A stretch of DNA of 64,000 nt from Streptomyces chattanoogensis (GTDB lineage Bacteria; Actinomycetota; Actinomycetes; Streptomycetales; Streptomycetaceae): positions 1 through 64,000 of the forward strand of contig NZ_LGKG01000068.1 in NCBI RefSeq assembly GCF_001294335.1, read 5' to 3'. Below the pieces are notes generated by a model. It saw nothing but the letters and a program-made list of their open reading frames with translations. It was not told where the DNA came from and ran no database searches. The first letter of the stretch is position 1. Each line of letters opens with the position of its first letter. Shown here one piece after another: positions 32,766-39,089 of this stretch. A program made the translations under genes and the position numbers.

Positions 32766-34967
32766 TTGCCCGGTCACCGCCCGTCCCGTATTTCCCGCCG
32801 CCGGCTGCTCCAGGCGACCGGCGGTGGTGTGCTGGCCGCCACGGCCTGCGTCGGCGGGTGGACCTGGCGCTCCCCGGAGGAGCCGGCCACCCGGACGGAG
32901 GAACCCGCCCGCCCCGCGCGGCCCGCGGCGGACGCCCGGAACCAGACATTCCTACACGTCGTCGCGCACGCGGACGATGCGCTCTACTTCATGAACCCGG
33001 CGCTGGAGCAAGGCATCCGCAGCGGCGCCCGCTCGGTCACCGTCTGCCTGACCGGCGGGGAGTCCGACGGCCACAACGCCGGCAAGGAGACCCCCGGCGC
33101 CGACCGCCTCCCGTACAACCGGGCGGACTTCGCGCGCGCCCGTACGAACGGACTGCGCGCGGCGCACGCCCTGATGGCCACCGGGGACGCCGGCAGTCCC
33201 TGGGACCTCGAGGCGGTGTCCCTGCTCCCCGGCTTCGAGGCGGAGCTGCACACCCTCCGCGAGGCCCCGCAGAACCAGCTGATCTTCCTGGAGCTGGTCG
33301 AGGCCCGGTCCGTCGCGGCACCCCGCGCGACCAGTCTGCGCGGCCTCTGGCTCGGGGCGGCCGGCACCCTGCCCACCCTTCGGCCCACCGGCACGCCCGT
33401 CCCCGCCGCCTACCGCTACACCCGCGACCAGGTCATCGGCACCCTGGCCGCGGTGCTCGGCCGGGTGCGGCCCACGGTGGTGCGCACCCTGGACCCGAAC
33501 CCCGTGCACCGCCTGGCGCCCCCGCAGTCCGCCCCGGACCCCCGGCTGGCCGGGCTGCGCTATTTCGACCACCAGGACCACATCGCCTCCGCGTATTTCG
33601 CGCAGGCGGCGCTGGCCCGCCACTGGGGGCAGGAGCACGGCCGTCCGGCCATCGTGGAGCACTACCTGGGCTATGAGCTCGGCGAGCTGCCCCACAGCCT
33701 CGACACCGGGGCGGCCCGCCGCAAGGCACGGGTGCTCGCCGTCTACGGCTGGTCCGACGGCCGCCGCTGCGGCGATCCGGCCGGCTGCGGCGACCGCAAG
33801 GTGGGCGATACGGCCTACCGCGGCGCCTCCCGGGACTGGACCCGCAGCACCCGGCTGCGCGCGCCCGGCTCCAACGCCTGGATCCGGCCGCTGCGGGACG
33901 GCCGGCTCGCCGCCTTCGCCGTCCTGGGCGGCCGGGCGTACTGCTGGACGGAGAGCCGTCCCGGGAGCGGCCGCTTCACCGGCCCCGCCCCGGTGGGCGG
34001 CGAGCTGCTGCAGGGTCAGATCCATGCCGTACGGCATCCCGGCGGCACCCTCCAGCTGTTCGCCGCCCGCACCCTGCTGCCCGGCCCGCACACGGCGCAC
34101 CGCCGCGAGCTGCTGACGGCCCGGCAGACCGGCACCGCGCGCACCGGAGCGCCCGTCTTCGGGCGCTGGGAGCCACTGGGATCCCCGGACCCGGACCCCC
34201 TCAGATCGCTGGAGACCGGCTTCCCGGCGGCGGCGGTGGCCCCGGACGGCACGGTGCATGTCTTCGTACGGACCTGGGACGGCGGGGTCGCCCACCGCAG
34301 CGGCCCGGACGGGCGGCGGTGGACGCCGTGGCGGCGGCTGGAGGGCCCGGTGACCGCCCTGAAGACGTCACCGCACATCGTCGACGGCATCGATGCCTGT
34401 GTGGACTCCGACGGGAGGGTCCATGTGGTCGCGCCGAGCGGCCGGACCGTCCACCACTGGGTGTCCAAGGAGCCCGGCAAGCCACCGCGCCCGGCCGCCG
34501 CCACCGGGCTGCCGGAGGCGGCGGGGCCGGTCAGCCTGGTCCCGGTGGCGGACGGCGCGGTGCGCGCGGTCTTCCGCCGGGCGGGCTCCGCCCAGGTGCT
34601 GATCGCCGAGCGGCAGAGGCGGCTCGGCGGCTGGCGGGTCTCCGGGCGGTGTGCACCGGTCGGCGGCTACGGGCGGGTGGCCGCGGCGCCGGCCGGTCCC
34701 GGCGACCGGATGGTGATCGCGGCGCGGGACGACGCGGGTGACGTGCGGGTGGCGTTCGCACAGGACGCCCCGGAACGCTGGCACGCGGGGAGGGTGCCGC
34801 ATTCGGCGGCGCCCGGGGTCGCGGAGGATGCCGCGGGCCGGGCGGTGGTGGTGGCGCTCGGCAACGACGGGCGGCTGTATACGGCCCGGCAGCGGGCGGC
34901 CGGGCGGCACGCGCCGTTCGGGGCCTGGACTCAGGCCGGATCGCGGGGGCGGGGCGGCGGGGCGTGA
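32766..34967 (+). CDS. Secreted PIG-L/LmbE-type deacetylase with C-terminal beta-propeller-like domain
   Basis: 733 residues from TTG 32766, preceded by AGAGGAGAT at good spacing. The Tat-type signal SRRRLLQATGGGVLAATAC (about 11-29) also ends in a weak lipobox. The PIG-L domain (about 58-330) has zinc/catalytic motif VAHADDALYF (family HPDDE; His and both Asp kept, Pro and Glu replaced) and the later zinc motif YFDHQDH. The remaining ~390 residues are beta-rich repeats with Trp/Gly blades such as FVRTWDGGVAHRSGPDGRRW, probably a lectin-like propeller. PIG-L enzymes remove N-acetyl groups from GlcNAc-containing glycans. The location inside a wall-polymer cluster suggests deacetylation of an exported glycan. 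The 3' end overlaps the convergent GtrA gene by 37 bases. Confidence 0.88.
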   Translation: MPGHRPSRISRRRLLQATGGGVLAATACVGGWTWRSPEEPATRTEEPARPARPAADARNQTFLHVVAHADDALYFMNPALEQGIRSGARSVTVCLTGGESDGHNAGKETPGADRLPYNRADFARARTNGLRAAHALMATGDAGSPWDLEAVSLLPGFEAELHTLREAPQNQLIFLELVEARSVAAPRATSLRGLWLGAAGTLPTLRPTGTPVPAAYRYTRDQVIGTLAAVLGRVRPTVVRTLDPNPVHRLAPPQSAPDPRLAGLRYFDHQDHIASAYFAQAALARHWGQEHGRPAIVEHYLGYELGELPHSLDTGAARRKARVLAVYGWSDGRRCGDPAGCGDRKVGDTAYRGASRDWTRSTRLRAPGSNAWIRPLRDGRLAAFAVLGGRAYCWTESRPGSGRFTGPAPVGGELLQGQIHAVRHPGGTLQLFAARTLLPGPHTAHRRELLTARQTGTARTGAPVFGRWEPLGSPDPDPLRSLETGFPAAAVAPDGTVHVFVRTWDGGVAHRSGPDGRRWTPWRRLEGPVTALKTSPHIVDGIDACVDSDGRVHVVAPSGRTVHHWVSKEPGKPPRPAAATGLPEAAGPVSLVPVADGAVRAVFRRAGSAQVLIAERQRRLGGWRVSGRCAPVGGYGRVAAAPAGPGDRMVIAARDDAGDVRVAFAQDAPERWHAGRVPHSAAPGVAEDAAGRAVVVALGNDGRLYTARQRAAGRHAPFGAWTQAGSRGRGGGA

Positions 34968-39089: not shown

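Follow-up and report, generated by a model that had tools for sequence, protein, structure and literature searches.

Do three adjacent genes of Streptomyces chattanoogensis, encoding a YfhO-family protein, a family 2 glycosyltransferase (GT2) and a small GtrA-type membrane protein, act as one glycosylation system, and if so upon which polymer? They lie in a 64,000-nt stretch of the 9.1 Mb genome, referred to here as the window, and a sequence-only reading had taken them for a complete three-component cassette placed beside TagF-like genes and galE. Gene order, families, predicted fold, conserved residues and cross-genome association were computed, and they agree with this: all three genes were found, with Pfam family matches, co-directional on the minus strand in the order yfhO, GT2, gtrA, and two TagF-like genes and galE lie beside them on the same strand (Table 1). 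We put at roughly two in three the probability that the three genes are one multi-component transmembrane glycosylation system (a kind reviewed under that name in PMC8035078) that decorates a teichoic-type wall polymer. The cassette is real and well-formed and its kind is already known; the more interesting product of the analysis is a prediction for a second protein family, DUF6056 (PF19528), at the place of YfhO in related loci.

The cassette and its proposed mechanism

Searches of the genome turned up a single YfhO gene, a single strong PgfS-like GT2 and three GtrA genes, and because the YfhO gene and the only strong GT2 of its class adjoin, the grouping is more than chance. The three genes had been described as partly overlapping, which holds for GT2 and gtrA (1 nt, TGATG) but not for yfhO, whose end and the GT2 ATG are 32 nt apart. 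The start codon of yfhO is TTG with GGAGG upstream, and short GATCTTGATCTT-like repeats flank this start (39088-39122), placing two in-frame TTG candidates right behind the single GGAGG. The closest relative of this YfhO (96% identity) is from Streptomyces chattanoogensis. A scan of 34500-46300 for sigma-70-like promoter and terminator patterns gave no match.

The GT2 is a membrane-linked enzyme of GT-A fold, for which Synechocystis GtrB (5EKP, E 2.6e-69, residues 2-303 aligned) is the top match among solved structures, and its DXD motif (D93-A94-D95) is invariant in 34/34 Streptomyces GT2 proteins; according to PMC5836110, altering the second Asp of the DXD motif inactivates CsbB of Bacillus subtilis. 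GtrA belongs by family match (PF04138) to the flippases, transport itself being predicted. For YfhO, a GT-C-like structure and an acidic residue in the first extracellular loop had been set beforehand as checks, and both were borne out, with a predicted GT-C-like fold and Asp59 in that loop, which is likely to be the catalytic acidic residue. Neither GtrA nor YfhO gave a credible match against PDB sequences. Together with the DXD motif and the GtrA family, this upholds the architecture and mechanism class first proposed, and we regard the class as likely.

According to the proposed mechanism, GT2 would attach one sugar to polyprenyl-phosphate on the cytoplasmic side, GtrA would flip the polyprenyl-phosphate sugar outward, and YfhO (GT-C-like, with Asp59 and a large C-terminal ectodomain) would transfer the sugar to a teichoic-type wall polymer that the TagF-like genes would synthesise and a TagGH-like ABC transporter would export. 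A wall-polymer acceptor is probable. For the sugar, galactose is probable given galE just upstream, this being a guess guided by that gene.

YfhO and DUF6056 across Streptomyces

The cassette was followed through 61 Streptomyces genomes (that of the window plus an even draw of 60 others), a GT2 of the cassette class being called strong at E under 1e-100 and a gene being called its neighbour within 6 kb of the GT2 place. GtrA was present in 61/61 genomes, YfhO in 24/61 and a strong GT2 in 32/61 (36 places). All 32 genomes with the GT2 encode one of the two candidate transferases, 23 having YfhO and the remaining nine all having DUF6056, while only two of the 29 GT2-less genomes have either, namely G001 (79% complete, YfhO) and G008 (DUF6056 below cut-off); the Fisher value for this genome-level association is 2.6e-15, which ignores genome relatedness. 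The neighbour at the 36 GT2 places was YfhO at 14, DUF6056 at 15, neither at seven and both at none (the DUF6056 at L076 was missed by the family search and added to the counts by hand), and neither gene adjoins any of 11 weaker paralogues of the GT2 in these genomes. This offers a rule for predicting partners, as every genome of this genus sample that has the GT2 class also encodes YfhO or DUF6056.

A tree of the GT2 proteins from 34 of the 36 places (the two left out are second copies, one in G019 and one in G029, each with DUF6056 adjoining) gave three groups. YfhO lies beside three, DUF6056 beside two and neither beside six of the 11 members of clade I, to which the window belongs; clade II has YfhO beside 11 and neither beside one, and clade III has DUF6056 beside 11. 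TagF-like genes are near 11/11 clade I loci (the window and 10 others) compared to 0/23 fetched clade II and III loci. Both galE (71-87% identity) and relatives of the glycosyltransferase encoded at 40348 (52-70% identity) are near 9/10 other clade I loci, the exception for both being L079, where about 4 kb separate the GT2 from a contig end and which has only a 39% match to the 40348 glycosyltransferase, inside its TagF-like gene. No TagF-like, galE or 40348 match was found at E 1e-10 in the 23 clade II and III loci, and weak ABC-ATPase or PIG-L matches were seen in three of them; gene calling was automatic and rough, with family matches used in its place at L089, L090 and L092, and L089 is only 4.8 kb long, so that its clade III neighbourhood is barely covered. 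Because clade I loci share their TagF-like, galE and 40348 neighbours and those of clades II and III do not, one locus type holds YfhO or DUF6056 depending on the species. The earlier link from the cassette to a wall polymer is thereby strengthened, its sugar and acceptor staying at the level of prediction.

A lone YfhO of the window's own YfhO clade was found in all six clade I genomes with neither gene beside the GT2; that clade has three members beside a GT2 and eight lone ones, all of the latter in these six genomes. In four of the six, DUF6056 also occurs as a lone gene, which shares about 50% identity with the clade I type and has no GT2-profile match nearby, and the expectation that YfhO and DUF6056 strictly exclude each other within a genome was rejected on this ground. 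With both as lone genes in the same genome, one lipid-sugar supply may therefore serve two transferases, as is tabulated for Listeria GttA (PMC8035078 Table 1). The YfhO alignment and tree leave out one of 34 YfhO places (that of G001, at a contig end), and the tree is a quick one with a long-branch warning. A separate clade of lone YfhO is formed by L057, L061, L071 and L072, each with a weak match to the 30178 TagF-like protein adjoining (27-37% identity).

The predicted model of DUF6056 is GT-C-like, and its first loop carries an acidic residue, D63, in 17/17 proteins including 7 from Lactococcus; in the close DUF6056 set both D63 and D64 are present in 62/62. A profile comparison does not place it in the YfhO family (hhalign probability 0.9%, E 0.065, 38 columns). 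The pairing with GT2, the GT-C model, the invariant first-loop Asp and the swap within clade I suggest that DUF6056 is probably an alternative acceptor transferase, and we consider it quite likely that it is a family of GT-C acceptor glycosyltransferases which shares the GT2-GtrA lipid-sugar supply with YfhO and took the YfhO place in one orthologous Streptomyces teichoic-type locus. Since DUF6056 stands at that place in relatives, the acceptor transferase seems exchangeable as a module, and if this is true the GT-C subunit would set specificity as a swappable part on a fixed lipid-sugar supply pair. DUF6056, which no paper in the searched literature names, is thus given a testable function; a Pfam grouping of PF19528 with GT-C families may already exist.

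Elsewhere in the phylum DUF6056 is rare (5/296 genomes match, only two of them over cut-off, and one of the five is a Streptomyces already counted), and a plasmid search gave three Streptomyces plasmids. At L095 (8591-10195, minus strand) a GT2-GtrA fusion, a single 534-aa protein, lies beside DUF6056, and open frames common to GT2 and GtrA point to such a fusion in several further genomes. In Lactococcus (L113/L115) a DUF6056 gene disrupted by frame changes or stops adjoins a window-like GT2. Lactococcus lactis CsdB was considered as a characterised DUF6056 member and the link was unsupported: the L. lactis control genome has DUF6056, and the L. cremoris genome (via L097) has none at E 0.001. 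Strain NZ9000 we take to be L. cremoris.

Neighbouring genes and competing explanations

Table 1. Cassette and polymer-related genes of the window, with family matches
Feature	Position	Strand	Assignment and evidence
TagH-like ABC ATPase	27514..28371	-	PF00005; top NCBIfam match TagH 174 bits (cut-off 320 missed)
ABC-2 permease, TagG-like	28328..30124	-	polymer exporter subunit; PF01061 34 bits vs 26.9; galactan export permease model 64 bits (cut-off 380 missed)
GT2 + TagF-like fusion	30178..32526	-	predicted polymer synthesis; PF04464 417.7 bits (above cut-off), PF00535; TarF 181 bits (cut-off 550 missed)
PIG-L deacetylase-domain protein	32766..34967	+	PF02585 37.8 bits; between cassette and first TagF-like gene
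gtrA	34931..35377	-	small GtrA/DPMS-type membrane protein, predicted polyprenyl-phosphate-sugar flippase; PF04138 (GtrA_DPMS_TM) E 7.6e-21, 74.9 bits vs cut-off 26.1
GT2, CsbB/PgfS/GtrB type	35377..36387	-	predicted polyprenyl-phosphate sugar synthase; PF00535 (Glycos_transf_2) 102.9 bits, 2.4e-29
yfhO	36420..39089	-	YfhO-family GT-C-like transferase, large C-terminal beta-rich part; PF09586 199 bits vs cut-off 28.5, 1.6e-58
galE	39304..40278	-	UDP-glucose 4-epimerase, likely UDP-galactose supply; TIGR01179 334.6 bits vs cut-off 262.3
GT2-domain glycosyltransferase	40348..42234	-	PF00535; conserved near window-type cassettes
TagF-like with N-terminal GT2 domain	42274..45903	-	predicted polymer synthesis; PF04464 295 bits (above cut-off), PF00535; TarF 213.7 bits (cut-off 550 missed)

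The PIG-L gene is convergent with gtrA, the 3' ends of both overlapping, and it adjoins the cassette also in two relatives, L073 and L074 (61-63% identity); its 733-aa product has the deacetylase domain in the N-terminal third, and a role as sugar de-N-acetylase in the polymer is possible. Away from the cassette, a raiA-hairpin RNA (12862-12909, plus strand; Rfam RF03059, 65.3 bits vs 43.7) stands directly upstream of a ribosome hibernation factor gene (12955-13647), and the 3' part of a 5S rRNA (1-91, plus strand) lies at the window edge.

Several points weigh against a wall-polymer decoration system. The end of galE is 214 nt from the yfhO TTG, so that a single galE-yfhO transcript is not assured, and the TagH, TarF and PgfS equivalog cut-offs were all missed by the window proteins, for which reason, as regards TagH and TarF, we mean "teichoic-type" broadly. 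TagGH homologues were seen near only one (L074) of the 10 other clade I loci; near eight they were not found in searches that included one-sided extra flanks, and L073 ends before that place. As 11 of the 14 YfhO-adjacent GT2 genes are of clade II and not in TagF loci, YfhO alone does not imply a wall-polymer acceptor, and in four clade I genomes, where YfhO and DUF6056 each occur as lone genes, the GT-C pairing is ambiguous. Finally, donor sugar, flipping, transfer and acceptor are what we infer from sequence.

The same machine might act on another glycan, be it lipoteichoic acid (LTA), teichulosonic acid, poly(diglycosyl phosphate) or exopolysaccharide, with the TagF-like proximity reflecting a shared sugar supply. 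YfhO of B. subtilis and Staphylococcus aureus is tabulated as acting on LTA (PMC8035078 Table 1), LTA has been reported in Streptomyces hygroscopicus (PMC3196553) and the clade II cassettes with YfhO are located apart from TagF genes, but the window-type GT2 is kept with TagF-like genes at 10/10 and with galE at 9/10 other fetched loci, which makes this unlikely. Within a wall-polymer decoration system, the acceptor may not be classical wall teichoic acid, because teichulosonic acid is reported to predominate in Streptomyces walls, beside some poly(diglycosyl 1-phosphate) (PMC11481543); a tagG deletion in Streptomyces roseosporus was rescued by B. subtilis tagG (PMC10269677). That DUF6056 is a chance neighbour of GT2-GtrA, or a different component such as a polymerase and not a replacement of YfhO, is quite unlikely. 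Its function is predicted only, and of the 22 DUF6056 places among the 61 genomes seven lack a strong GT2 at 6 kb or less, with no GT2-profile match in 10-15 kb stretches around any of the seven (0/7; the profile finds the GT2 in 5/5 control loci). Against this stand its adjacency to the strong GT2 places, never shared with YfhO, its model and invariant Asp, and a window-like GT2 beside DUF6056 in 4/8 Lactococcus genomes with an over-cut-off match.

Glycosylation of secreted or wall proteins, as by the Streptococcus mutans Pgf operon (GT2, YfhO-like proteins and pgfE), we hold to be improbable, even with galE as the next gene upstream of the cassette; PgfE is presumably an epimerase. The best NCBIfam match of the GT2 is PgfS, PgfM2 is also among the top matches of the window proteins, and the pgfS-pgfM1-pgfE-pgfM2 operon modifies surface proteins (PMC5856776), but every Pgf equivalog cut-off was missed (PgfS 363/500, PgfM1 60/1400 and PgfM2 101/1500 bits), one YfhO gene and not two was found in the genome, and the neighbours clade-wide are TagF-like polymer genes.

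Comparison with known systems

The GtrA-GtrB-GtrX O-antigen modification operons differ from the window in their Gram-negative O-antigen acceptor and in their third protein. Shared are the three-gene operon, the GtrB-type GT2 and GtrA (PMC7117936). The gsf cluster of Actinoplanes missouriensis is also GtrA-dependent and from an actinomycete, but its role is in sporangium formation, the main text describes it without YfhO and the model is drawn without a named GT-C enzyme (PMC13390465). A search for YfhO together with Streptomyces gave no paper on a Streptomyces YfhO, judged by titles.

The genes of such sets in Bacillus and Staphylococcus had been said to be usually scattered, which is half right. 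In B. subtilis, gtcA is located elsewhere than csbB-yfhO (PMC8035078 Table 1), but csbB-yfhO is one operon (PMC5836110), and by the consecutive gene numbers of the same Table 1 Listeria csbB and gtcA are neighbours and Bacillus anthracis gtsABC is an all-adjacent set. GtsABC of B. anthracis Sterne shares a GT-A enzyme, a flippase and a GT-C enzyme with the window (PMC8035078 Tables 1 and 2), the GT-C being of PMT-2 type and not YfhO, and its acceptor is SCWP. The S. mutans pgf genes, likewise a single operon, resemble the window in combining a GT2 and YfhO-like proteins with PgfE (PMC5856776), but have two large membrane proteins (PgfM1 and PgfM2) and a protein acceptor, whereas the window has GtrA in the set.

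The nearest likeness is to CsbB-GtcA-YfhO of B. subtilis, S. aureus and Listeria, with the same three families, a GT2 with DXD and a YfhO predicted to be a GT-C transferase (PMC8035078 Table 1; PMC5836110). There, at most two of the three genes are adjacent by the tabulated gene numbers, whereas in the window all three lie together at a TagF-like/galE locus of an actinomycete. Extracellular polymer glycosylation of the CsbB-GtcA-YfhO kind would thus extend to a teichoic-type locus of Streptomyces, where wall-polymer decoration is little known, and the loci provide compact, deletable gene sets.
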